Part shown: one piece after another, positions 336-28,362 of the stretch
Layout: each line of letters starts with the position of its first letter
How positions within the stretch are numbered: the stretch's first letter is position 1
Assembly (NCBI GenBank): GCA_040753555.1
Contig: JBFMDZ010000005.1
Location: 1-35,364 of the forward strand
DNA length: 35,364 nucleotides
Source: a bacterium
GTDB taxonomy: Bacteria; UBA9089; UBA9088
Reading direction: 5' to 3'
Program-made: the position numbers and the translations under genes
The notes under the pieces: model-generated
What the model saw: only the letters and a program-made list of their open reading frames with translations
What the model was told of the DNA's origin: nothing
The model's database searches: none

Positions 336-887
336 ATGGAAGATTTAATAACAAAGCTCATTGAGGCACTTGGAGAAGACCCAAAGAGGGAAGGGTTGGT
401 TGATACACCAAAAAGGGTTTCTTCTTCCCTTAAATATTTGACATCTGGCTATTTGGAAGACCCTGTTGATGTATTAAAAAAGGCAATATTTATTGAGGAA
501 TATGATGAGATGGTAATAGTTAAGGACATAGAGCTCTTTAGCCTTTGTGAGCATCATCTTCTGCCATTCTTTGGAAGGTGTAATGTTGCTTATATTCCAG
601 ATAAAAAGATAGTAGGATTATCCAAAATTGCAAGGGTTGTTGATATTTATGCAAGGAGGCTTCAGGTTCAAGAGCGTCTTACTACACAGATAGCAAATAC
701 AATTAACGATGTTTTGCAACCAAAGGGTGTTGCCGTTGTAATAGAGGCTTTACACCTCTGTATGACAATGAGGGGTGTTGAAAAGCAGAATCCTCGCATT
801 ATTACATCCTCTATGCTTGGCTTATTTAGAAAAAATAAAAGCACAAGGATGGAGTTTATGGAGCTTATAAAAAATGTATCTTCTTGA
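336..887 (+). CDS. folE: GTP cyclohydrolase I
   Basis: The enzyme converts GTP to 7,8-dihydroneopterin triphosphate, the first step toward folate or pterins and, in some bacteria, queuosine. The 183-residue length fits the compact bacterial form. The conserved core is present: CEHH (71-74), the VGLSKIAR segment (93-100), the QVQERLT segment (110-116) and the HLCMTMRG segment (140-147). Cys71, His74 and Cys142 match the zinc ligands of the family. The ATG is chosen because it sits just after the -10 box and the N-terminus aligns with the family. The next gene originally started inside the last codons of folE, at 874. The last 22 codons of folE are repeated at 4982-5047, after an inserted cassette. 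Confidence 0.95.
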
Positions 888-1035
888 TAAAAATTCTGAT
901 AATACAGAGCTTTGCCTAGGAATAGCAAGGGATGGAGCAATTGCCAGAGGGATAAATGATATTATTGTTGCCTCAACCACAGGAAAAACAGGCTTAATTG
1001 CTGTAAGGATGCTTCAAGGAAGCGGGATAAACCTT
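822..1035 (+). repeat. Left copy of 214-bp direct repeat (folE tail + PK-C-like 5' end)
   Basis: This matches 4982-5195 base for base except one T/C change at 888 versus 5048, which is silent in the downstream gene (GAT/GAC). It covers the last 66 nt of folE and the first 162 nt of the PK-C-like gene, which overlap. With the right copy it brackets the three-gene cassette. Confidence 0.95.
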
Positions 1036-1093: not shown

Positions 1094-1123
1094 TTGACAA
1101 GATTTTGTTTTTGTTGTTATTAT
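1094..1123 (+). promoter_or_regulatory. Promoter of the three-gene cassette
   Basis: A perfect -35 TTGACA (1094-1099) is followed after 18 nt by TATTAT (1118-1123). The GTG start at 1137 is 13 nt beyond the -10 box, giving a leader of only a few nucleotides. The cassette therefore brings its own promoter and need not depend on the folE operon. Confidence 0.65.
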
Positions 1124-1136
1124 TTAAAGTGATAAA

Positions 1137-1754
1137 GTGGAAGCAATAATAGATAAGATTTATGATTTTATAGTGAGTGAGGATTGTTACGGCAGTAATT
1201 TGCGGACAATAGTGGAAGATATAGAAAAAGGGTATGTTACATCTCAAACAAAAATATCATCTGAAATATTAGAAGAAAGGCTTAAGTCATTAGAAAAAGG
1301 GTTTAAATTAAGAGAGATAAGGAAGTATATTTTAAACAATAAAGACCAACTAGCCAATCTTTTTGAAGAGGATATAAAAAATCGTTTAGAAGAACCACAA
1401 AGAATAGATTGCTCACTTGAAATAGAAATAGGAAAAGAAGGAATTACATTTCGTATTATATTATGGGTGGGGGTTCTTGTTAATATTATAGTTATAGATG
1501 ATGATGTTCCTCCCGAAACAAAGGCTGTCTTAAGGGAAAAAGAGGCATTTTTAGCAATGGAGAAGAATCTTATTAAAGAATGTTTTGGAAAGTGTGTGGC
1601 AATTATAAATGGTAAAATAGCTGGCATTGGCGATAATGAAATAGAATTGGCTATTAAGATTTATAAAGAGCGTGGTTATATTCCAATGTATCTTACAAAA
1701 GTTGGTGAGAAAGAAAGGGTTATCAGAATTCCATCACCCAGGATAAGATTGTAG
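1137..1754 (+). CDS. DUF5678-like domain protein, first gene of cassette
   Basis: The predicted cytosolic protein has 205 residues. The N-terminal two thirds contain helical, charged segments and then an acidic, strand-rich part ending near residue 120 (IVIDDDVPPE). I do not recognise this part. The last 70 or so residues resemble DUF5678: a helix, then the CVAIINGKIAGIGDNEIE segment, then a helix and a strand. That small domain has no assigned biochemical role and is often encoded next to retropepsin-like proteases, as here. The GTG start is used because it directly follows the promoter and no ATG lies in frame before the conserved part. The TAG stop shares one base with the GTG start of the next gene, so translation is probably coupled. 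Confidence 0.6.
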   Translation: MEAIIDKIYDFIVSEDCYGSNLRTIVEDIEKGYVTSQTKISSEILEERLKSLEKGFKLREIRKYILNNKDQLANLFEEDIKNRLEEPQRIDCSLEIEIGKEGITFRIILWVGVLVNIIVIDDDVPPETKAVLREKEAFLAMEKNLIKECFGKCVAIINGKIAGIGDNEIELAIKIYKERGYIPMYLTKVGEKERVIRIPSPRIRL

Positions 1755-2140
1755 TGAAATATAATTATCTTCCTATTCCCTTATATCCAGATTCTCCACT
1801 TGCCCCAATTTTAGAGATAGAGGTTTGTGATCCACTTCAGAAAAAGAAGGAAAGGGGGATATGCTTGTTGGATACAGGTGCAGATATGACAGTTATTCCA
1901 AATAGAATTATTGTGGCATTGGAGCTTAACCCAGCAACAACTGTTCGTTGCACAGACTATAAAGGAGAGGAAAAAGAACGAGGTGTATATATAGTTAGGA
2001 TATTCTTAGGAAATTTTGAACTTTTTTGTGGCTTTTGCACAGAAACCAGAGAGGACATAGGTCTTATTGGAAGGGATATATTGAATCAATGGGTTGCTCT
2101 ATTTGATGGACCTAAGCAGGAATTTTCTCTAAAACAATGA
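1754..2140 (+). CDS. Retropepsin-like aspartic protease
   Basis: The protein is small (128 residues) and fits a single-domain retroviral-type aspartyl protease, which acts as a homodimer in known members. Two hallmarks are visible: the catalytic DTGA (Asp40-Ala43) within CLLDTGADMTVIP, and the GLIGRDILNQW segment near residues 103-113, which matches the ILGRD-type motif. There is no signal peptide or membrane segment, so it should be cytosolic. It sits between the DUF5678-like gene and the KaiC fusion, sharing 1 base with the first and 4 bases (ATGA) with the second. That predicts one transcript and coordinated synthesis. The substrate is unknown; a cassette partner is a natural guess. Confidence 0.8.
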   Translation: MKYNYLPIPLYPDSPLAPILEIEVCDPLQKKKERGICLLDTGADMTVIPNRIIVALELNPATTVRCTDYKGEEKERGVYIVRIFLGNFELFCGFCTETREDIGLIGRDILNQWVALFDGPKQEFSLKQ

Positions 2141-4950
2141 GAGAGATTAATCTAAAGGATAAAATCCTTGGCCTAGAAGGGTTAGATATTATTTTAAAAA
2201 ACAAGCCTTTAGAATACGGTATTGACCCTAACCAAGGCTATAATATCCTTGTCAAGGGACTGCCAGGAACAGGAAAAACTACCTTTGGGCTTGCATTGCT
2301 TGATGAGCTTTCTAAAAAGAATAATAAAAAAGCAGAGGTTCTTACTATGCTTGAGAAAGGATATCAGATTTTTGAGATATGTAGAATATTTGGTTTCTTT
2401 GAGATGCATAAGAGATTAGAAGATAGAGAAATAAAGGATAGGCTTGTGGTGACTGAGGGAGACCATAGAAGATTTGCCGATTTGGACTTTATGCTTGGGA
2501 AAGAAGCTATAAGGTATTTAATGATAGATGGGATTAGTGCTGTAAAATATAGACCACTTAAGGAGCAGATGACATTCCATGGAAAAATAGAGGAGATTCT
2601 TGATGAGTTAAAAAAAAGGGGGGCTTTCACTATTATTGTATCAGAGGAGCCAAGGGAGACAGAGGATAGATTTTTTGAATATATTGTGGATGGGATAATT
2701 CATCTTTCAGTTGAGGGAAGGGAGCGCTATCTTGAAATATCCAAGCTTAGATGGAAGGATTATTATCTAGGAAAGCATAGCCTTAGGCTCCAATCAGTAG
2801 AAAGATTTCCTGAAAACTACGGAGTTTCCATATTTCCTTCCATAAGGTGCTATTTCCCAGAGTCCAGAAAGATAAAGAAAGCATCTAAAATACCATCGGG
2901 TATTTGTGGGTTTGATAGACTAGTAGGAGAAGGGTTCTTGCCAGGTGAAATAATTCTTTTAATGGGAGAACCTGGCTCAGGAAAGACCACCTTTGGAATG
3001 CAATTTCTTAAACAAAAGAGTGGTGGCAAAAGCCTTTGCATATCCCTTGAATATACCCTTGAAGAAATCAAACAAATATATGATAGCTTTAAAGATGAAG
3101 GTCTAAAAGAATTTATACAAGGTGAAGATGAAAATTATTTATTTGTCTATTTCAATCCTTCTGATAGTGACTTCCTATTGGATGAATTTAGTAGTAAAAT
3201 CATTTCTATAGTAAAGACCCATAATATAAGTAGGGTCTTGATTGATAGCGTATCCTCTCTAAAAAATAGATTTACGAACATTGGAGAATATGCAAGTTAT
3301 ATCTCATCTTTAATTAGGGTGCTTAAAAATCTTAATGTTACATCAATCCTAATCTGGGAAATGTCCTCATATTTCCCATCCCTTGCTTCTCTTGAAACAT
3401 ATAACTCTGAAGAGGTTGATACAATAATTGCCTTAAGGCACTATGATTTTAATAATGCTATATCCCGTGGATTGGTGGTCTTAAAATCCCTTGGAAAGGA
3501 GCAGAATGTAGCCCTACAGAATATGTATATAACCCCTAATAAAGGGCTGTATCTGGAAGAGAAAGGGTGGGCTAAGATAGGATTGCTTAGTGGACAACCT
3601 GAAAGTATTAGTGAGGCTAAATTATTCTTTAAGTTTTTCTATCAAAGCAAATCCCACCATGAGGTAGAAGAGGGTGTGTTTGAGGAATTTAAGGGTAGAT
3701 ATCCTAAGGAAACATTTACAAAAGTCCTTAAGACTAACCCATCACCAACCCACTGGAGTTTTAAGGGTTATTATGGGGCTGGCCATTCTAATACCAAAGT
3801 TATTTCTGCAAGGAAGTATGTAATGGATATGCTCAGGAAAAATGGGACCTTAACTCCTTTGCCAGAGGATATTTATAATAAATATAGAGAAAGGTTTGAA
3901 AGCACTCTTCTTCGGAAGGATAAAGATTACAAAGAATCTTGTATGGTTCCTTACTATGCAGATGTAGGTGTTTTGGTTTATCAAAAGGTATTTTTATTGG
4001 CTTTAACAGAAGGGATAACCATAGAAAATGCAAAGAAGGAAATGGAAGATAAAGGAAAGGTGGTACAATACCCAAAAAATTGGGATGAAGTAAAAGCATT
4101 AAAGGAGAAGTTTCTTGGAAGGAAGGATGAATTTAGACAGGGAGGAATTTATTATCTCCTTATAATACCCAATACAGTAGCTGATACAAGACAATTTATG
4201 ACCTTCTTTTTGGAACTATTATTGGCACATGGAGGAAAAATGGGGCCTTTTGAAACTGTCTATTGCACAGATTTAGATGAATGTCGGAATGTCCTTATTG
4301 AAAATATCCAAAGTCCAAAATTTGCAGAGACTTTAGAGTTTATGAAGGATTTGGTTGGTGATGGAAGGGCAGTGCCAAATCCAAATATCGGGGGTAATTA
4401 TCATTACTCTATCCTTTCAAGAAGGTGGTATGGAAAGATGGAGTTGTTTGAGAAAGATAAGAGAGAATTAGAGAAAAAAGGAAAAAAACTTGATTTCTCA
4501 ATTGCCCCCTTGCCAGAAATTAAAAGTGAAATAGGAAGCTTTTCTTGTCTTGATTTGTATTTTTTGGGGATAATAAAGGGTGCCCTTGCTCCAGAAACAG
4601 GATGGATGTTTATCAATGAATTATTAGAGTTTTATGTGGACATTGGACAATGCGAACAAAGGCGAGGTCTTCCTATTGTTAAAAAGGAGGTTTATGGCTC
4701 AGACTTATTGAAAACTTCTTTGCGTCTTGATTACAGTGTTATAAACTCTATACTTTTTCCTGATGATGGAAAGAGAAAAATTACAACATTTAGAACATCT
4801 GATATCCCTTATTACTATTATATTGAGCGTTTGCTTGCACCCATCATTAAAAATATCTTTGTTGAAGGCAGTTCTTCTGAGAAGATTCAAGAAGATATTG
4901 TGAAGGAGCTTAATAATAAATTTGTAGAGTCTTATCTTTCATCCATATAA
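2137..4950 (+). CDS. Double KaiC-type ATPase fused to a solute-binding-protein-like domain
   Basis: The protein has 937 residues in three parts. Residues 1-240 and about 245-480 are two RecA/KaiC-type ATPase domains. Domain 1 has Walker A GLPGTGKTT (41-49) and a YLMIDGIS Walker B. Domain 2 has GEPGSGKTT (about 277-285), the SLEYTLEEI segment resembling the KaiC acidic pair region, and VLIDSVSS as Walker B. Residues about 490-937 read like a family 1 extracellular solute-binding protein. In order they show an FEEFKGRYP-like opening, MLRKNGTLTPL, VPYYADVGVLVYQK, YPKNWDEVKALKEKF, FLELLLAHGG, DFSIAPLPE, ETGWMFINEL and RGLPIVKKEVY. No signal peptide or membrane segment is visible, so this normally periplasmic fold would be cytosolic. 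No ABC permease is nearby. The ATG overlaps the protease stop. Confidence 0.8.
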   Translation: MREINLKDKILGLEGLDIILKNKPLEYGIDPNQGYNILVKGLPGTGKTTFGLALLDELSKKNNKKAEVLTMLEKGYQIFEICRIFGFFEMHKRLEDREIKDRLVVTEGDHRRFADLDFMLGKEAIRYLMIDGISAVKYRPLKEQMTFHGKIEEILDELKKRGAFTIIVSEEPRETEDRFFEYIVDGIIHLSVEGRERYLEISKLRWKDYYLGKHSLRLQSVERFPENYGVSIFPSIRCYFPESRKIKKASKIPSGICGFDRLVGEGFLPGEIILLMGEPGSGKTTFGMQFLKQKSGGKSLCISLEYTLEEIKQIYDSFKDEGLKEFIQGEDENYLFVYFNPSDSDFLLDEFSSKIISIVKTHNISRVLIDSVSSLKNRFTNIGEYASYISSLIRVLKNLNVTSILIWEMSSYFPSLASLETYNSEEVDTIIALRHYDFNNAISRGLVVLKSLGKEQNVALQNMYITPNKGLYLEEKGWAKIGLLSGQPESISEAKLFFKFFYQSKSHHEVEEGVFEEFKGRYPKETFTKVLKTNPSPTHWSFKGYYGAGHSNTKVISARKYVMDMLRKNGTLTPLPEDIYNKYRERFESTLLRKDKDYKESCMVPYYADVGVLVYQKVFLLALTEGITIENAKKEMEDKGKVVQYPKNWDEVKALKEKFLGRKDEFRQGGIYYLLIIPNTVADTRQFMTFFLELLLAHGGKMGPFETVYCTDLDECRNVLIENIQSPKFAETLEFMKDLVGDGRAVPNPNIGGNYHYSILSRRWYGKMELFEKDKRELEKKGKKLDFSIAPLPEIKSEIGSFSCLDLYFLGIIKGALAPETGWMFINELLEFYVDIGQCEQRRGLPIVKKEVYGSDLLKTSLRLDYSVINSILFPDDGKRKITTFRTSDIPYYYYIERLLAPIIKNIFVEGSSSEKIQEDIVKELNNKFVESYLSSI

Positions 4951-4981
4951 TTTTGAAGCACAACCTCTATCTATACTTGGT

Positions 4982-5047
4982 TTATTTAGAAAAAATAAAA
5001 GCACAAGGATGGAGTTTATGGAGCTTATAAAAAATGTATCTTCTTGA
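4982..5047 (+). pseudogene. Detached 3' end of folE
   Basis: These 66 nt code for the last 21 residues of FolE plus its TGA and have no folE body before them. They are the start of the right copy of the 214-bp repeat. Weaker similarity to folE continues a few bases upstream (CCTCTAT at 4964-4970, then CTTGG). The fragment shows that the PK-C-like gene originally lay immediately after folE. Confidence 0.85.
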
Positions 5048-5195
5048 CAAAAATTCTGATAATACAGAGCTTTGCCTAGGAATAGCAAGGGATGGAGCAA
5101 TTGCCAGAGGGATAAATGATATTATTGTTGCCTCAACCACAGGAAAAACAGGCTTAATTGCTGTAAGGATGCTTCAAGGAAGCGGGATAAACCTT
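4982..5195 (+). repeat. Right copy of 214-bp direct repeat
   Basis: This is the partner of 822-1035 with one mismatch. The matching 44-bp second segment lies at 5531-5574, inside the intact PK-C-like gene. Confidence 0.95.
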
Positions 5196-5579
5196 ATTAT
5201 CGTAACCCATAATGTTGGATTTAAGGAAGAGGGAGCCTATGAGTTAAGTAATGAAAAAAGGCTGGAGATAATTGGATTTGGAGCAAAAATTCTTACTGGA
5301 ACAATGGTTTTAAGGGGATTAGGAGCAGCAATAAGGGATAAGGGGGGATATACACAAGAGCAGATTGTTGCAGATGCTTTAAGGATATTCGGACAGGGTG
5401 CAAAGGTATGCTGTGAGATAACCGCTATGGCAGCGGATAGTGGGCTTATTGGAACAAAAGAGGTAATAGCTGTTGCAGGAACAGGACACGGTGCTGATTG
5501 TGTCTGTGTAATCAAGCCTGCCTCGTCCAATAAATTCTTTGAAATGAGGGTAATTGAAATATTGGCAAAGCCAAGATGA
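5034..5579 (+). CDS. Pyruvate kinase C-terminal (alpha/beta) domain-like protein
   Basis: This 181-residue protein resembles stand-alone versions of the pyruvate kinase C-terminal domain. It contains DIIVASTTGKTGLIAVRML near residues 29-47, the IIVTHNVGF segment and a glycine-rich AVAGTGHGAD near the end. Pyruvate kinase uses this domain for allosteric or regulatory binding; the stand-alone family has no firm role, and the catalytic barrel is absent. The ATG overlaps the folE tail, and the TGA overlaps the comF ATG by four bases. A broken second copy lies at 874-1038. The intact copy has lost its link to the folE promoter, since the cassette now lies in between. It may be read through from the cassette promoter. 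Confidence 0.75.
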   Translation: MYLLDKNSDNTELCLGIARDGAIARGINDIIVASTTGKTGLIAVRMLQGSGINLIIVTHNVGFKEEGAYELSNEKRLEIIGFGAKILTGTMVLRGLGAAIRDKGGYTQEQIVADALRIFGQGAKVCCEITAMAADSGLIGTKEVIAVAGTGHGADCVCVIKPASSNKFFEMRVIEILAKPR

Positions 5580-6364
5580 AGCCCTTGTCTTTGCTTCTTG
5601 ATTTCTTTTTGCCTTCTGATTGCAAGCTCTGTAAATTACCACTTGAATATGATGAAACATATATTTGCAAGGTTTGCTTTTCAAAGGTAGAAGAAATTAA
5701 GCCTCCGCTATGCAGAAGGTGTGGAAGACCATCTTTTTCTATTTTCTGCCTTGAATGTAGAAGAAAAAGGAGGTATTTTAAAAGGGCTATGTTTTGTGGG
5801 GTATTTAGTGGTGTTCTAAAAGAGGCAATACATATATTCAAGTATGAAAAGAAGGAAGGCCTTTCAAAGGAGCTTGGCAATCTGATGTGTAAGGCATTGG
5901 ATAAGGCAGGGTGGAATGTTGATGTAATTGCCTCTGTTCCACTCCATAAGAAGAAAGAAAGGGCTCGTGGTTTTAACCAAACAGGGCTTTTGGCAGAGAT
6001 AATAAGCAAAAAGAGAAATATCCCACTTTTTAATGGGCTTATAAAAAAGATTGATACCCCATCACAGGTTGGATTGCTTTATAATGAAAGGAGGGCAAAT
6101 ATAATAGATTGCTTTACATTAAAGGATAAGGATAGGATAAGGGACAAATCTATTCTTTTGATAGATGATGTTATGACAACAGGGACAACAATAGAGGAAT
6201 GTAGCAAGACCCTTTTATCCTCTGGTTGCAGAGATGTATATGTCCTTTGCCTTGCCTGTACTATTGGGGAGTCGTCTAGTGGTAGGACACAAGACTCTGG
6301 ATCTTGCTGCGGAGGTTCGAATCCTCCCTCCCCAGAATTTACAGATAAAGAAGGAGATGGGTAA
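5576..6364 (+). CDS. comF: ComF-family phosphoribosyltransferase-like protein, C-terminus runs through tRNA-Gln
   Basis: ComF-like proteins carry an N-terminal zinc-binding module and a type I phosphoribosyltransferase fold, and are linked to DNA uptake in competent bacteria. Four Cys pairs are visible: C16/C19, C31/C34, C46/C49 and C58/C61. They are followed by the PRPP loop LLIDDVMTTGTT near residues 192-205. The family usually ends just after the VLCLACT-type strand, here about residue 228. This frame has no stop there. It continues through the complete tRNA-Gln at 6265-6335 and ends at TAA 6362-6364, adding about 34 residues dictated by the tRNA. A cytosolic DNA-uptake role is inferred; type IV pilin-like genes occur 6 kb downstream. 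Confidence 0.85.
   Translation: MKPLSLLLDFFLPSDCKLCKLPLEYDETYICKVCFSKVEEIKPPLCRRCGRPSFSIFCLECRRKRRYFKRAMFCGVFSGVLKEAIHIFKYEKKEGLSKELGNLMCKALDKAGWNVDVIASVPLHKKKERARGFNQTGLLAEIISKKRNIPLFNGLIKKIDTPSQVGLLYNERRANIIDCFTLKDKDRIRDKSILLIDDVMTTGTTIEECSKTLLSSGCRDVYVLCLACTIGESSSGRTQDSGSCCGGSNPPSPEFTDKEGDG
6265..6335 (+). tRNA. tRNA-Gln (anticodon CTG)
   Basis: A cloverleaf can be drawn by eye. The acceptor stem is TGGGGAG/CTCCCCA with discriminator G. The anticodon stem CAAGA/TCTTG encloses loop CTCTGGA with anticodon CTG, and the T-arm loop is TTCGAAT. The U1-A72 pair and G73 are glutamine identity features. CCA is not encoded. The gene lies wholly within the 3' part of the comF frame, on the same strand, so processing it from a joint transcript would cut the comF mRNA. 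Confidence 0.9.
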
Positions 6365-8531: not shown

Positions 8532-10769
8532 GTGAAAATCACAATTGATAATAGAGAAATAGAGGTCTCTCCCAATATAACCATCCTTGAGGCGGCAAAG
8601 CAAGCTAATATAAAAATTCCAACCCTTTGTTATGATAAAAGGCTTTCGTCCTTTGGTGCCTGTAGAATTTGTATTGTTGAGCTTGAAGGAGGAAGGGAAA
8701 GATTTACAACATCTTGCACAACACCTGTAGCTGATGGAATGAAAATAAGGACAACCTCACCTGAGATAATAAAGGCAAGAAAAACAATTCTTGAGCTTAT
8801 TTTAGTAAATCATCCCCTTGATTGCCCTGTCTGTGATAAGGCGGGTGAATGCGAGCTTCAAAACCTTGTCTATGAATATGGGGTTTCCTCTAATAGGTTT
8901 TTGAGGTTTAGAGAGGATACAAAATTAAGAAAAGATTATGAAAGCCCCCTTATTGAGAGGGATATGAATAGGTGTATTTTGTGTGGAAAGTGCGTTAGGG
9001 TCTGCGATGAGCTTGAAAATAAGGGGGAAATCTCATTTGCAAACAGGGGACAAAGGACTTTGATAACCACAGATTTTGAAAGGCCCTTGGATTGTGATTT
9101 TTGTGGTATGTGCATTGATATCTGCCCTGTGGGAGCACTTTCTTCAAAGCTTTTTAAATACAAAGCAAGGGTATGGGAGCTTGAAAACAAAGAGATAATT
9201 TGTCCATTTTGCAATGTTGGATGCAGGCTTATAACAAGAAGCAAAGATGAAAAAATTCTAACAGTAGAGGGAGGAAATGGTATAAATGAAACCTCTATGT
9301 GTGTAAAGGGGCATTTTGGCTGGGATTATGTTTATTCAGAAAAAAGAATTACCAGCCCCCTTATTAAAAAAGATGGAAGGCTTAAGGAAGCAAGTTGGAA
9401 TGAAGCGCTAAATTTAATTACAGAGAAATTTCAAGGCTTAAAGGGAAAAATTGCTTGCGTTGTTTCTTCCAGACTTACAAATGAAGAGCTTTATTTGGCA
9501 AAAGAATTTACCTATCGCTGTTTAGAAAGCAAAAATATTTTTTGTCTGGATGAGAGCTTTTCTGGTTTTGCTAGCCTTTCATCCTCTTTAGGATATATTC
9601 CATCTCAATCCCCTTCTTCTATTAAAGATTCTGATTGCATCCTTCTTGTTGGCGATGTTTCAGAAAGCAACCCTGTGCTAAATACCTTTATAAATTATGC
9701 TGTAAAAAACAAAGAGGCAAACCTTATTTCTATAAGCCCAATAGAGACAAAGACAACAAGGATAGCAACCCATAAAATACTTACAAGCCCTGGAAAGGAG
9801 GAAGAGACCCTCTTTAAAATGGCAAGGGTAATTATTGATGAAAATATTTGTAATTGGGATTTTATCCATCAGAAAACAGAGGGTTTTGATTATTTAAGAG
9901 AGACCCTTTCAAAATACGAGCCAGATGATAAAATAAAAGAAGCAACTATTGCTTTTGCTAAAGCAAAAAGCCCTATAATTATTGCAAATTTTTCTGATAT
10001 TATCAAATCTTGTTGTAATCTTTTGCTTCTTTTGGGAATGCCAAATAATATAATTATCTGCGGAGACAGGACAAATTCAAGGGGTGCTTATGAAATAATA
10101 AAAAATTCTCCTTGTGATTTGAGGTCTTTAGAAATAAAAGGCTTATTTCTTATTGGAGAGATGGTTTCCAATGATATTATTAAAGAAAAAGAATTTGTTG
10201 TAGTATCCCATTTATTTATGAGGGATGAGATTATGGAAGTAGATGTTATCCTTCCAAGCTCATCATCTTTGGAAAAGGATGGAACATATACCTCTCTTTT
10301 TGGAATTACACAAAAAACAGAAAGGGTTTGTTTCCTTCCTTCTGTAAAGTCTTCTCTGGAGATTTTACAATTGCTTTCTCTAAAAATGGGTTGTGAGATA
10401 GGAATAAGGGAGGAGGAAGGAAGAAAGGAATTTGAAAAGGGGAAATTCTTTATAAAAGAACCAATTAAGGAAAGCGAAGGTTTAGGATTTGATATTATCA
10501 TCTCTTATAATCACTTTCATTCTGGATATACATCCCATTATTCAAAGACCTTGATGGAGCTTTCACCTTTTCCTATTCTTAAAATGAACAAAAACGATAT
10601 ACAAAGGCTTAACATAAACCAGAGGGCAAAGATAATGTTAGAAAAGCCAATTGTTATGAAGGTAGAGGAGGATAGAAATGTAAGGGAAGGTATGGCTGTT
10701 ATTATGGAGCATCCAGATATAACCCATCTATTCCCAAAAAGGGTTTTTAAAGCAATGATAAGTCTATGA
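8532..10769 (+). CDS. NuoG-like molybdopterin-family iron-sulfur oxidoreductase subunit
   Basis: The 745-residue protein has the domain order of complex I subunit G. A [2Fe-2S] ferredoxin domain carries Cys33, 44, 47 and 62. The His-Cys cluster has His94, Cys98, 101 and 107. Two [4Fe-4S] sets follow (Cys148/151/154/158 and Cys188/191/194/198). Next comes the molybdopterin-family motif CPFCNVGC (224-231) with Cys257, then a bis-MGD-type fold. No Cys or Sec typical of formate dehydrogenase catalysis is obvious, which favours NuoG or a related electron-transfer subunit. No other complex I gene lies nearby, so its partners are elsewhere or it belongs to a soluble complex. The start is GTG, and the stop overlaps crp by four bases. 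Confidence 0.8.
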   Translation: MKITIDNREIEVSPNITILEAAKQANIKIPTLCYDKRLSSFGACRICIVELEGGRERFTTSCTTPVADGMKIRTTSPEIIKARKTILELILVNHPLDCPVCDKAGECELQNLVYEYGVSSNRFLRFREDTKLRKDYESPLIERDMNRCILCGKCVRVCDELENKGEISFANRGQRTLITTDFERPLDCDFCGMCIDICPVGALSSKLFKYKARVWELENKEIICPFCNVGCRLITRSKDEKILTVEGGNGINETSMCVKGHFGWDYVYSEKRITSPLIKKDGRLKEASWNEALNLITEKFQGLKGKIACVVSSRLTNEELYLAKEFTYRCLESKNIFCLDESFSGFASLSSSLGYIPSQSPSSIKDSDCILLVGDVSESNPVLNTFINYAVKNKEANLISISPIETKTTRIATHKILTSPGKEEETLFKMARVIIDENICNWDFIHQKTEGFDYLRETLSKYEPDDKIKEATIAFAKAKSPIIIANFSDIIKSCCNLLLLLGMPNNIIICGDRTNSRGAYEIIKNSPCDLRSLEIKGLFLIGEMVSNDIIKEKEFVVVSHLFMRDEIMEVDVILPSSSSLEKDGTYTSLFGITQKTERVCFLPSVKSSLEILQLLSLKMGCEIGIREEEGRKEFEKGKFFIKEPIKESEGLGFDIIISYNHFHSGYTSHYSKTLMELSPFPILKMNKNDIQRLNINQRAKIMLEKPIVMKVEEDRNVREGMAVIMEHPDITHLFPKRVFKAMISL

Positions 10770-11455
10770 AAAAAAGTGATTTTTTAAGGCTTATTCCTAT
10801 ATTTTCTTCTTTATCTCCTAAGGAATTACAGGGTTTAAGCGAAATTGCTGATATTAGAACATACAAAAAAAATAGCCTTTTCTTTGCAAAGAATGATTTA
10901 GCAACCTATCTCTTTATTGTTAAAAAAGGAAGCGCAAAGGTTATTATAGAACATGAGGATGGAAGGGAAGTGATTCTTTCTATTCTATATTCAAGGGATA
11001 TATTTGGTGAGATGTCTTTGCTTGACGGAAGACCAAGGTCAGCAACGGTAATCGCCAAAGACGATTGCGAGGTTTTGCTTATTGCAAGGTTTAAATTCTT
11101 AAGCTTTCTTAAAGAGCACCCTGGTATTTCCATAAAAATATTAGAAACCCTTTCATTAAAGCTACGGAAAACAGACAATCAGGTTAAAATCCTTACCCTG
11201 ATTTCTGCTGACGAAAGGATAGCCTCTTTTCTTTTAAATATGATAGAGGAATATGGAGTAAAAAGAAAGGATGGGGTATTGATAGATATTAAACTTATTC
11301 ATCAGGATATAGCAGATATGTGTGGAATAAGAAGGGAAACATCAAATCGGGCAATCTCAAGATTTATAAAGGCTGGCTTAATAAAGAGGGAGGGAAAGAA
11401 AATAGTTGTCCTTGATAGAATCGCTCTTTATGAAAAGATGAAGAAAGGGTTATAG
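10766..11455 (+). CDS. Crp/Fnr-family transcriptional regulator
   Basis: The 229-residue protein has an N-terminal cyclic-nucleotide-binding-type barrel. The segment GEMSLLDGRPRSATVIA (about 86-102) is the usual signature. A dimerisation helix follows, then a winged helix-turn-helix near residues 165-205 (IADMCGIRRETSNRAISRF). No N-terminal Cys cluster of the Fnr type is visible, so direct oxygen sensing by [4Fe-4S] is unlikely; the effector is unknown. It is translationally coupled to the NuoG-like gene (ATGA overlap) and directly abuts infC. It may respond to redox or energy state and control this operon, but no target site was identified. Confidence 0.88.
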   Translation: MKKSDFLRLIPIFSSLSPKELQGLSEIADIRTYKKNSLFFAKNDLATYLFIVKKGSAKVIIEHEDGREVILSILYSRDIFGEMSLLDGRPRSATVIAKDDCEVLLIARFKFLSFLKEHPGISIKILETLSLKLRKTDNQVKILTLISADERIASFLLNMIEEYGVKRKDGVLIDIKLIHQDIADMCGIRRETSNRAISRFIKAGLIKREGKKIVVLDRIALYEKMKKGL

Positions 11456-11971
11456 TTGAAAGAGAAAAGGCTTTTTATAAACGAGGCCATCAGAGCCCCA
11501 AAGATAAGGCTTATTGATCAAAATGGGAATCAAAAAGGGGTGGTTTCAAGGTATGAGGCATTACAGGAGGCAAGGAATGCCGGGCTTGACCTTGTTGAGG
11601 TATCATTTGATAATTCCATATCCGTATGTAAAATTATGGATTATGGAAAATATATGTATTCCCAGAATAAAAAGGCAAAAGAGGGAAAGAAAAAACAAAA
11701 GGCAATTCAAGTAAAAGAGGTAAAATTAAGACCATCTACAGATGAGCATGATTTTACCTTTAAGGCAAATCAGTCAAAGAAATTTTTAGAAAATGGCTGT
11801 AAGATAAAGGTTGTTCTTAATTTTAAGGGAAGGGAGATAGTGCATTCAGAGATAGGAATGAATACCATTACAAAATTTGCTGATTGCCTAAAGGATTTTT
11901 CTTTTGTTGAAAAAAGGCCATATTTTGAGGGAAAAAGGATAGTTATGGTCATTGCTCCAGCGAAAAAATAA
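11456..11971 (+). CDS. infC: Translation initiation factor IF-3
   Basis: IF-3 binds the 30S subunit and polices start-codon choice. The 171-residue length and both domains fit: RLIDQNGNQKGVVSRYEAL with the EARNAGLDLVEV segment at the N-terminus, then KEVKLRPSTDEHDFTFK and the ending KRIVMVIAP. Translation starts at TTG (11456-11458), directly after the regulator's TAG. Weak start codons are usual for infC and serve self-regulation in species that have been studied. The rpmI-rplT genes that often follow infC are absent. Placement behind a redox gene and a Crp-type regulator is unusual. Confidence 0.93.
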   Translation: MKEKRLFINEAIRAPKIRLIDQNGNQKGVVSRYEALQEARNAGLDLVEVSFDNSISVCKIMDYGKYMYSQNKKAKEGKKKQKAIQVKEVKLRPSTDEHDFTFKANQSKKFLENGCKIKVVLNFKGREIVHSEIGMNTITKFADCLKDFSFVEKRPYFEGKRIVMVIAPAKK

Positions 11972-12068
11972 TTTCCTCTCCCATTGGAATAAATGCCTTA
12001 TATAATGCCTCTTTGTCATTGCTGAACACATACCCTGTATCTGTTCCTGTTATAAATATGCCTTTCAT
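11949..12068 (-). pseudogene. Short ORF resembling the start of dethiobiotin synthetase
   Basis: A 39-codon frame on the minus strand opens with MKGIFITGTDTG, which is how BioD proteins typically begin before their GKT P-loop. It then departs from the family (YVFSND) and stops. It overlaps the last 23 nt of infC in a convergent sense. It may be a decayed bioD fragment or a chance match. The rest of 11972-12129 holds only the pilin promoter. Confidence 0.25.
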
Positions 12069-26155: not shown

Positions 26156-26374
26156 TCACTGGCTATGAGGAAGAGTAGATTTTTCTGGCAAAATATATAC
26201 AGGGGTTTTAAAAATTTTAGCACTATTGAGTTCGTGTTTATGGGGTTTAATTTCATCTAATAAATCAAAATACTCATCAAGAGAACGCTGTTTCTTGTCT
26301 TTGTTAAATAGATTTTTTTTAGAGGCTTTATTGTCCCATTGAAAAATAAGGCTGTTAATTTTTGCTTTATTCAT
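26156..26374 (-). CDS. Small hypothetical protein paired with a nucleotidyltransferase
   Basis: The 72-residue protein is charged and Lys-rich (MNKAKINSLIFQWDNKASKK), with a central SLDEYFDLLDEIKPHKHEL helix and a Pro-rich tail. I do not recognise it. Its ATG lies 8 bases inside the end of the nucleotidyltransferase gene, so the two should be made together. By analogy with small partners of MNT/AbiEii-type enzymes, it could be a cognate regulator, but this is only context. Confidence 0.5.
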   Translation of the reverse strand: MNKAKINSLIFQWDNKASKKNLFNKDKKQRSLDEYFDLLDEIKPHKHELNSAKIFKTPVYILPEKSTLPHSQ

Positions 26375-26891
26375 TTATAATTTCATCATAATACCTTTCA
26401 AGTCCATATTTCTTAAAAAGTCTTTGCAAGGCATTTTTTTTAAAATTTGTAAGATGGAATATCTCCTTAATATCGGCAAGCTCTTTATATTTTCTAGGAG
26501 GGTCATTCTGAATTGCAAAGAGCTTTAGACTAATTAAGTGTTCAGGGCTAACTACTGGAATTTCAAGATTTTCAAGAATAAGTTTTTTCTTTGTGGATTG
26601 GAAAATAGTATTGGCTGTTTCGCCACCTACATAAACCACATCTATCCTTACTTGTCCAAGGGGATGTAGGTGATTGGAAAAACCCTCTGAACGGTTTAAT
26701 GTTTCAAAGCCAATTTTCTCAAGATACTCAACAATCATTTTCTGGTATTCAACCCTCGTAATGAAATCAATATCTTTTGTTGCCCTAGTATATCCATAAG
26801 CATAGAGGCCGAATGCTCCGATAACTGCATAATCAAAATTTTCCTGTTCAAAAAAATTTGTTAATAACTTAAATTGTTCTTTTATGCTCAT
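26367..26891 (-). CDS. Nucleotidyltransferase-fold protein (AbiEii/MNT-like)
   Basis: The 174-residue protein has the minimal nucleotidyltransferase core. GAFGLYAYGYTRATKDIDF (about 25-43) has the G-x-A opening and the DxD pair for metal binding, and a further Asp lies in QVRIDVVY. The middle SPEHLISLKLFAIQND segment is common to AbiEii-like and related families. Some of these act as toxins that transfer nucleotides to tRNA or proteins; others have unknown jobs. I chose the ATG at 26891 rather than an upstream one, because the family starts there. It overlaps the end of cobA-hemD by 23 bases, which suggests read-through expression. Confidence 0.72.
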   Translation of the reverse strand: MSIKEQFKLLTNFFEQENFDYAVIGAFGLYAYGYTRATKDIDFITRVEYQKMIVEYLEKIGFETLNRSEGFSNHLHPLGQVRIDVVYVGGETANTIFQSTKKKLILENLEIPVVSPEHLISLKLFAIQNDPPRKYKELADIKEIFHLTNFKKNALQRLFKKYGLERYYDEIINE

Positions 26892-28362
26892 TTTTATAAT
26901 ACCCGCATATTGCATCAACAAGACCCTCATCTGTAAAGGTAGAGGCAACAATATCTACTGAAATTCCATTATCCATTAAAGCCTTGCTGGTTATAGGTCC
27001 TATGCTTGCAATTTTAGCATCAAAGATTCCTATTAGCTTAAGGAAGGAAGAAACACAGGATGGGCTTGTAAAGCAGATTGCATCTATTTCGTTGTTTTGG
27101 ATGATGCTTTTTATAGGATTTGGGTCTTTTTCTGTTGGTTTTGCCTCATATAATATAAGTGTATTAACACTTGCGCCATTCCTGGAAATCCCTGAGATAA
27201 GAATATCCCGTCCTTCTTTTGACCTTATAACAAGAACCTTTTTATCCTTAATTCCTTCCTTTAAAAGCATATCAAGTAATGCTTCTTGTTGATATGTCTC
27301 TGGCATAATATCTACCTTAATTTTAAGCCTTGCTATCTCATCCCTTGTCTTCTCTCCAATTGCAGCAATCTTTGGCCCATAAAAACCCCTTATATCATCT
27401 AATTTTTCAAAAAAAAGCCTGACGCCATTGGTTGATGTAAAGACAAGCCAATCGTAGCTATTTATTTTTTCCAGGATATAAGGAAGGGCAGGGTCATTAT
27501 AAGGAACAATGGATATTATGGGAAATTTTATAACCTCTGCACCTTTATCAAAAAGGATTTTGGAAAGATTATCTATCTGGCCTTCTGGTCTTAATACAAG
27601 AATTTTCTTTCCAAACAAAGGCTTTTTTTCAAACCATGCCATCTTTTCTCTCAATTTAACAACATCGCCGATTACAATAACGCCTGGGGGCGTAATATTA
27701 TTTTCAGAAACAAGCCTTCCTATTTCCTGCAATTCTCCTGTTATTGTTTGCTGATATGGAAGAGAGCCCCATCTTATAACAGAGGTTGGTGTTTTTGGGT
27801 CTTTTCCTGCCTCTATAAGGGCTTTTGTAATCTCGGTAATCCTTTCAATGCCCATAAGAATAATAAGGGTTCCCTGTCCTTTTGCAAGTTCCTTCCAGCT
27901 AATTTTGTCGTCATCTTTTCTATGTCCTGTTATTATTGTTAAGGAAGAGGCATAATCCCTGTGGGTTATTGAAATCCCAGCATAAAGAGGGCAGGCAAGG
28001 GATGATGATATGCCAGAGATTATCTCAACATCAATCCCTTTTTCCATAAGATATAATGCCTCCTCTCCTCCCCGACCAAAGAGAAATGGGTCTCCTCCCT
28101 TAAGCCTTGCAATAATCTGTCCATCGCTTGCAAGGTTATAAATCAGGCTATTTATCTCATCCTGCTCCATAATATGGGACGCACCCATTTTCCCAACGCA
28201 CAAAAGGTTTTTATTATCTGGCAAGGTCTCAATTATCTCTTCTGAAACAAGGCAATCATATAGAATTATATCGCATTTAGCAATTGCATCCTTTGCCTTT
28301 ATGGTAAGAAGCCCCGGGTCTCCTGGCCCTGCTCCTATAAGATATACCTTGCCATTACCCAT
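26869..28362 (-). CDS. Uroporphyrinogen-III C-methyltransferase / uroporphyrinogen-III synthase fusion (CobA-HemD)
   Basis: The 497-residue bifunctional protein has an N-terminal SAM-dependent methyltransferase (VYLIGAGPGDPGLLTIKA at the start, RLKGGDPFLFGRGGEE near residue 85). It makes precorrin-2 for siroheme, cobalamin or the siroheme-dependent heme route. From about residue 245 it continues as HemD (KILVLRPEGQ, VFTSTNGVRLFF), which closes hydroxymethylbilane to uroporphyrinogen III. The start is the ATG at 28362, because a -10 box ends 7 nt before it; a longer frame to 28422 would begin upstream of the promoter. Supply of tetrapyrroles for the nearby multiheme cytochrome is a plausible link. 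Confidence 0.92.
   Translation of the reverse strand: MGNGKVYLIGAGPGDPGLLTIKAKDAIAKCDIILYDCLVSEEIIETLPDNKNLLCVGKMGASHIMEQDEINSLIYNLASDGQIIARLKGGDPFLFGRGGEEALYLMEKGIDVEIISGISSSLACPLYAGISITHRDYASSLTIITGHRKDDDKISWKELAKGQGTLIILMGIERITEITKALIEAGKDPKTPTSVIRWGSLPYQQTITGELQEIGRLVSENNITPPGVIVIGDVVKLREKMAWFEKKPLFGKKILVLRPEGQIDNLSKILFDKGAEVIKFPIISIVPYNDPALPYILEKINSYDWLVFTSTNGVRLFFEKLDDIRGFYGPKIAAIGEKTRDEIARLKIKVDIMPETYQQEALLDMLLKEGIKDKKVLVIRSKEGRDILISGISRNGASVNTLILYEAKPTEKDPNPIKSIIQNNEIDAICFTSPSCVSSFLKLIGIFDAKIASIGPITSKALMDNGISVDIVASTFTDEGLVDAICGYYKNEHKRTI

Follow-up and report, generated by a model that had tools for sequence, protein, structure and literature searches.

A rare family of double-KaiC ATPases with a predicted cytosolic solute-binding-protein domain

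KaiC-like ATPases are widespread, and to our knowledge the inputs and outputs of those outside the cyanobacterial clock are mostly unknown. A stretch of 35,364 nucleotides from a draft bacterial genome (lineage UBA9089, contig JBFMDZ010000005.1), hereafter the window, contains a frame of 937 codons in which two KaiC domains are followed by a long C-terminal tail resembling the family-1 extracellular solute-binding proteins (SBPs). Such a protein raises the question of what its tail is, whether the fusion is genuine, and what an SBP might do when attached to a cytosolic ATPase. The original prediction, drawn from the DNA letters and their translated reading frames, described it as a double KaiC ATPase fused to a cytosolic SBP domain. 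In this study, we examine that description by profile searches, by comparison with homologues, and through the gene's surroundings. Its core, KaiC-KaiC plus a cytosolic SBP, stood, and the arrangement recurs in homologues; an HD part present in the relatives and the insert in which the window copy lies had both been missed. The features discussed below are collected in Table 1.

Table 1. Features of the KaiC-KaiC-SBP gene and of the insert that carries it (window coordinates)
Feature	Position	Strand	Basis
Left direct repeat: folE 3' end and 5' part of truncated PK_C-like gene	810..1035	+	223/226 identical to 4970-5195
Promoter-like TTGACA-18-TATTAT with TG, just inside insert	1094..1123	+	11/12 match; consensus match only
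205-aa ORF, no family assigned	1137..1754	+	1-base overlap with protease gene
Retropepsin-like aspartic protease gene	1754..2140	+	4-base overlap with start of KaiC-SBP gene
KaiC-KaiC-SBP protein, 937 aa, ATG start	2137..4950	+	ORF; whole-length alignment of homologues
First KaiC (RecA-like) domain, residues ~9-235	2161..2841	+	PF06745 second stretch; PDB KaiC match from residue 35
Walker A of first KaiC domain, GLPGTGKTT (41-49)	2257..2283	+	Translation; conserved in 5/5 members
Second KaiC domain, residues ~250-475	2884..3561	+	PF06745 match 252-472
Walker A of second KaiC domain, GEPGSGKTT (277-285)	2965..2991	+	Translation; GxxGxGKT conserved in family
Linker, family motif GW..xLLSGx...I, residues 477-493	3565..3615	+	G, W, L, G, I invariant in 5/5 members
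Predicted family-1 SBP (MalE/TMBP-type) domain, residues 494-937	3616..4947	+	1EU8 profile match; hhalign and controls
N-lobe family signature WSFKGYYGAGHSN, aligned near SBP 'SGxxPD' loop	3754..3792	+	W, S, F, G, G, H, N invariant in 5/5
PYYADVGVL motif, SBP hallmark	3949..3975	+	Y607, D609 align with Y, D of 1EU8 LPVYIDAG
IAPLP motif, C-lobe	4501..4515	+	Alignment including 1EU8
PETGWMFI motif, C-lobe helix	4591..4614	+	Alignment including 1EU8
IPYYYYIE motif, aligned with VPYYPQLSE of 1EU8	4804..4827	+	Alignment including 1EU8
Right direct repeat, runs into intact PK_C-like gene 5034-5579	4970..5195	+	Repeat comparison

The KaiC half and the C-terminal tail

The two RecA/KaiC domains with intact Walker A motifs that had been predicted were recovered: PF06745 matched the protein in two stretches (E=6e-45, 153.8 bits against a cut-off of 26.6), and both P-loops are intact. 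The nearest solved relatives of the protein are KaiC, the best PDB matches covering residues 182-492 and others residues 35-491. It thus shares tandem RecA/KaiC domains and intact P-loops with the double-domain KaiC and KaiC-like ATPases (PF06745), but differs from them by its additional C-terminal SBP domain and by falling in a clade separate from the double-KaiC proteins of its host. Against the NCBIfam models for clock KaiC equivalogs it scored below cut-off (TIGR02655, 65.3 against 546 bits; PRK09302, 122 against 408), and no kaiA or kaiB partner was found among the window ORFs scanned. In the region of the paired catalytic glutamates the window protein reads LEKG and LEYT, apparently one Glu per KaiC domain, the relatives having FEE or FSG in domain I and FE or FD followed by S or G in domain II. 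Because the pairs appear reduced to one Glu each, the ATPase activity of the window KaiC domains may be low. A 695-aa frame resembling a triple KaiC protein was seen in genome G007 (L013, 1480-3564).

The protein appears to be cytosolic, as predicted. A hydropathy scan revealed no signal peptide or membrane span (highest 19-residue value, 1.43), and the first P-loop comes straight after the N-terminus. For the tail, which is internal to a protein whose N-terminus is not hydrophobic, no lipobox or export signal was found, nor was an ABC permease found among the window ORFs scanned.

That the tail of about 450 residues carries family-1 SBP hallmarks in both lobes is plausible but unproven on the window protein alone, because the single-sequence match is weak and the PDB search was null. 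SBP_bac_1 scored 17.8 bits on residues 481-937 (E=0.0034), below its gathering cut-off of 26, and the PDB search with the tail gave no significant match. PADLOC and NCBIfam held nothing specific for the tail, and the tails of the Ca. Aminicenantes homologues described below gave no Pfam match at E<=0.1 when searched singly.

The assignment became strong once homologues were added. A three-member tail profile, in which the relatives were cut to the columns of the window protein, was searched against the whole PDB and matched the trehalose/maltose-binding protein 1EU8 at E=3.4e-9 (query 30-441 against 13-401, both lobes colinear); the further matches at E<1 were all maltose-binding proteins (6dtq, 0.0011; 1urd, 0.11; 1urg, 0.13). 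With untrimmed relatives 1EU8 was still the top match (E=4.7e-5), its N-lobe and C-lobe segments in order, as it was with all five members untrimmed (E=0.02). When compared by hhalign with a profile of twelve SBPs from the same phylum, the tail profile aligned over 349 columns with 98.2% probability and a score of 111, as against scores of at most 22.9 in 100 column shuffles and 17 for the tail against a KaiC profile. Each of the five members singly scored 49-67, and the four relatives without the window protein scored 94.7. AlphaFold gave no usable model (mean pLDDT 34 for the full protein alone and 32 for the tail with three family members), and the fold assignment consequently rests on sequence profiles. 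By these, residues ~494-937 are strongly predicted to form a family-1 SBP domain with both lobes.

Both lobes and the motifs of the family-1 extracellular SBPs (1EU8, from T. litoralis) thus align with the window tail over ~400 residues. In contrast to those proteins, the tail lacks a signal peptide or lipobox, is fused to a cytosolic ATPase with no permease found, and shares with the other KaiC-SBP tails the family-specific motifs WSFxG..GHxN and IPYYYxIE. Y607 and D609 are invariant in all five members. Their aligned counterparts in 1EU8 are the Tyr and Asp of LPVYIDAG, which we take to be ligand contacts in its pocket; this favours retained ligand binding. Derivation of the SBP part from its own genome is unsupported, since the sole above-threshold SBP_bac_1 match there is a PstS-type protein beside phosphate permease genes.

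Other arrangements of SBP domains were met in the same phylum. In L041, L042, L044 and L052 the SBP domain is followed by a membrane span, and in L041 and L044 the frame runs on into a C-terminal part, cytosolic as judged by eye, which would be another non-transport use of an SBP. L051 and L043 (769 and 799 aa) hold an SBP in one frame with an ABC-permease-like membrane part. The long SBP frames found in the phylum by PF01547 resembled SBPs fused to a permease or anchored in the membrane, rather than fusions with KaiC.

Homologues and their HD partner

The original prediction proposed a search for the same fusion in other genomes, and this returned four whole-unit KaiC-KaiC-SBP homologues, three in one Ca. 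Aminicenantes genome and one in Ca. Poribacteria. The Poribacteria copy is a 2135-codon frame in which a full-protein BLAST match (386 genomes; G327) runs from KaiC into the tail. An alignment of the two tails then found L099 on the same contig (JACRIR010000171.1) and, in Aminicenantes, L098 (JAPKZK010000156.1), whose genome also carries the copies L108 and L109. A single-sequence scan of genome contigs with the window tail alone yielded no convincing relatives, and no tail relatives were found in viral contigs and plasmids. The family is rare, occurring in 1 of the 396 genomes of the Ca. Aminicenantes phylum sample, while in the 386-genome sample the Poribacteria copy stands alone besides the window protein.

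The linker motif GW...L.G recurs in all five members, as do motifs in both SBP lobes; the window protein carries the family-defining GW..L.G, WSFxG..GHxN and PxYxDxGV upon its KaiC-KaiC and SBP tail. In a tree of the KaiC-KaiC region the five are monophyletic (support 100/99), apart from the double-KaiC paralogues of the window's host genome. The branch leading to the window protein is long (2.02), which makes its placement within the family less certain. As judged from the tree and the shared motifs, the KaiC and SBP parts are co-inherited, with a single origin of the fusion. The presence of the same fusion in two other phyla shows that the window ORF is neither a chance ORF nor a one-off chimera.

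In the four relatives, KaiC-KaiC-SBP is accompanied by an HD domain and a winged-helix-like segment. The HD domain is fused in L098 and L099, within the N-terminal ~700 residues. L108 and L109 have the corresponding region in a gene of its own immediately upstream, which stops a few bases short of the KaiC-SBP frame or overlaps it. The HD-CE profile PF24391 matched L098 above cut-off (3.1e-7), the Poribacteria copy just below it (2.5e-5, read from L097 on the same contig) and the upstream gene of L109 below it (9e-5); the upstream gene of L108 gave no Pfam match and keeps, by eye, an LLHDIG motif. Cas3-HD profiles also match L098. In both split copies the gene boundary falls within the same winged-helix-like segment, a segment named by eye. 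Such alternation between fused and adjacent HD domains is good evidence for a functional link between the parts and points to an HD effector, and the ancestral system was probably HD plus KaiC-KaiC-SBP. Whereas the relatives thus have an HD(-CE) or Cas3-type HD domain fused or directly upstream, the window protein is without one: it begins directly at the first KaiC domain, and Pfam found no HD domain in the ORF or its upstream genes.

At L108, a STAND/TPR-like gene (10096-12066) with weak PADLOC matches adjoins one of the Aminicenantes HD and KaiC-SBP pairs, making a conflict neighbourhood possible. We infer an effector or conflict role of the family from the family names and from this STAND-like neighbour in one locus.

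The insert carrying the window copy

The window copy lies in an insert of ~3.9 kb, bounded by 226-bp direct repeats, between folE and a pyruvate-kinase-C-like (PK_C-like) gene. In G001, a genome of the same genus, folE, the PK_C-like gene and a comF-like gene are contiguous and the insert is absent. The left PK_C-like copy has an internal deletion of ~336 bp, as seen by comparing the repeat and PK_C stretches at 810-1085 and 4970-5580. Within the insert, the promoter-like site is followed by the 205-aa ORF, the retropepsin-like protease gene (PF13975 2e-6, just above cut-off; clan_AA TIGR03698 3e-5, below cut-off) and the KaiC-SBP gene, and the gene ends overlap. Such direct repeats are consistent with a circle having integrated by a single crossover, or with a tandem duplication. 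As the repeats are nearly identical, a recent event is suggested; gene conversion could also keep them alike.

Elsewhere in the window, a single frame at 18243-19925 matches FdhD/NarQ and the quinolinate synthase NadA, an apparent FdhD-NadA fusion, and an AbiEii-type nucleotidyltransferase match (32 bits) on the minus strand at 26367-26951 overlaps a HemD/tetrapyrrole methylase ORF.

A possible ligand-operated ATPase and its alternatives

The architecture, the homology, the co-inheritance of the KaiC and SBP parts and the HD partnership in the relatives are established. The explanation that we prefer, tentatively and at somewhat short of even confidence in the whole, is that the window protein is a member of a rare family of KaiC ATPases, cytosolic and operated by a ligand, with HD-linked relatives. 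The two KaiC domains would probably form a KaiC-type ring, and the C-terminal maltose-binding-type SBP domain would have shed both its export signal and its permease partner. The SBP lobes would close around an intracellular ligand, which could be a saccharide, a peptide or a protein segment, and thereby alter the ring's ATP state. Complete relatives would relay the signal via the winged-helix-like segment to the HD hydrolase, a putative regulated effector in stress or in phage/self conflict. The window copy, having lost or never had the HD arm, would act on another partner, possibly the co-encoded retropepsin-like protease. A more specific form of this proposal, a new signalling or conflict system in which the cytosolic SBP senses a ligand and drives a KaiC ring licensing an HD nuclease or phosphohydrolase, the window copy having swapped HD for protease, seems to us rather unlikely as a whole.

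The main rival holds that the SBP domain binds no small ligand and is a fossil scaffold for protein contact, with the HD protein, the protease or a target, the KaiC ring being a plain assembly platform. We consider this possible, if somewhat unlikely: the strongest invariants, WSFxG...GHxN and IPYYY.IE, are peculiar to this family and are not residues that SBPs in general use for their ligands, and the relatives have long inserts between the lobes, but Y607 and D609, aligned with what are presumably pocket-region residues of 1EU8, are invariant in five of five members. It is improbable that the window copy is merely a functionless, degenerate remnant of an HD-KaiC-SBP system in a duplicated or inserted segment. 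Its lack of HD and the winged-helix-like segment, its long branch (2.02), its apparently reduced catalytic Glu pairs and its position between near-identical repeats in an insert that G001 lacks would all agree with decay; against this, the 937-codon frame and both P-loops are intact, the invariant motifs are retained despite great divergence, the upstream genes are coupled, and a promoter-like site is present.

Two further possibilities concern the reality of the protein as described. The weak single-sequence Pfam score and the low-confidence AlphaFold models would suit a non-SBP domain with chance SBP-like motifs, yet the maltose-binding profile match at 3e-9 and the 98% profile-profile match with shuffle controls make this very improbable. 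An artefact of gene calling or assembly that joined a KaiC gene to an SBP gene might have been suspected in a draft genome fragmented into 332 contigs, with repeated flanks; the same fusion, with aligned linker motifs, in four other ORFs from two other phyla refutes it and leaves it a negligible chance. Compared with these alternatives, we favour the ligand-operated ATPase.

The original prediction knew of no described family with this architecture, and none was found in Pfam, NCBIfam, PADLOC, the PDB or the literature searched. KaiC and HD-CE are both absent from a 2020 eLife article about NTP-dependent conflict systems (PMC7159879). A literature search on the HD-CE domain found no paper, and one for KaiC with SBP or HD-CE found no published description of the family. 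The parts are already known, and their combination is apparently new as far as the libraries and literature searched reach. LysR-type effector domains and LacI are cytosolic sensors of the periplasmic-binding-protein fold; the window tail would likewise be an intracellular sensor, but is of a different SBP class and is joined to a KaiC ATPase instead of a DNA-binding output. Within one or two genes the family brings together a putative ligand sensor, an ATPase and, for most copies, an HD effector, such that input, ATPase and output are all testable in vitro. It is also an example of a classic transport-binding protein recruited as a component of an intracellular ATPase.
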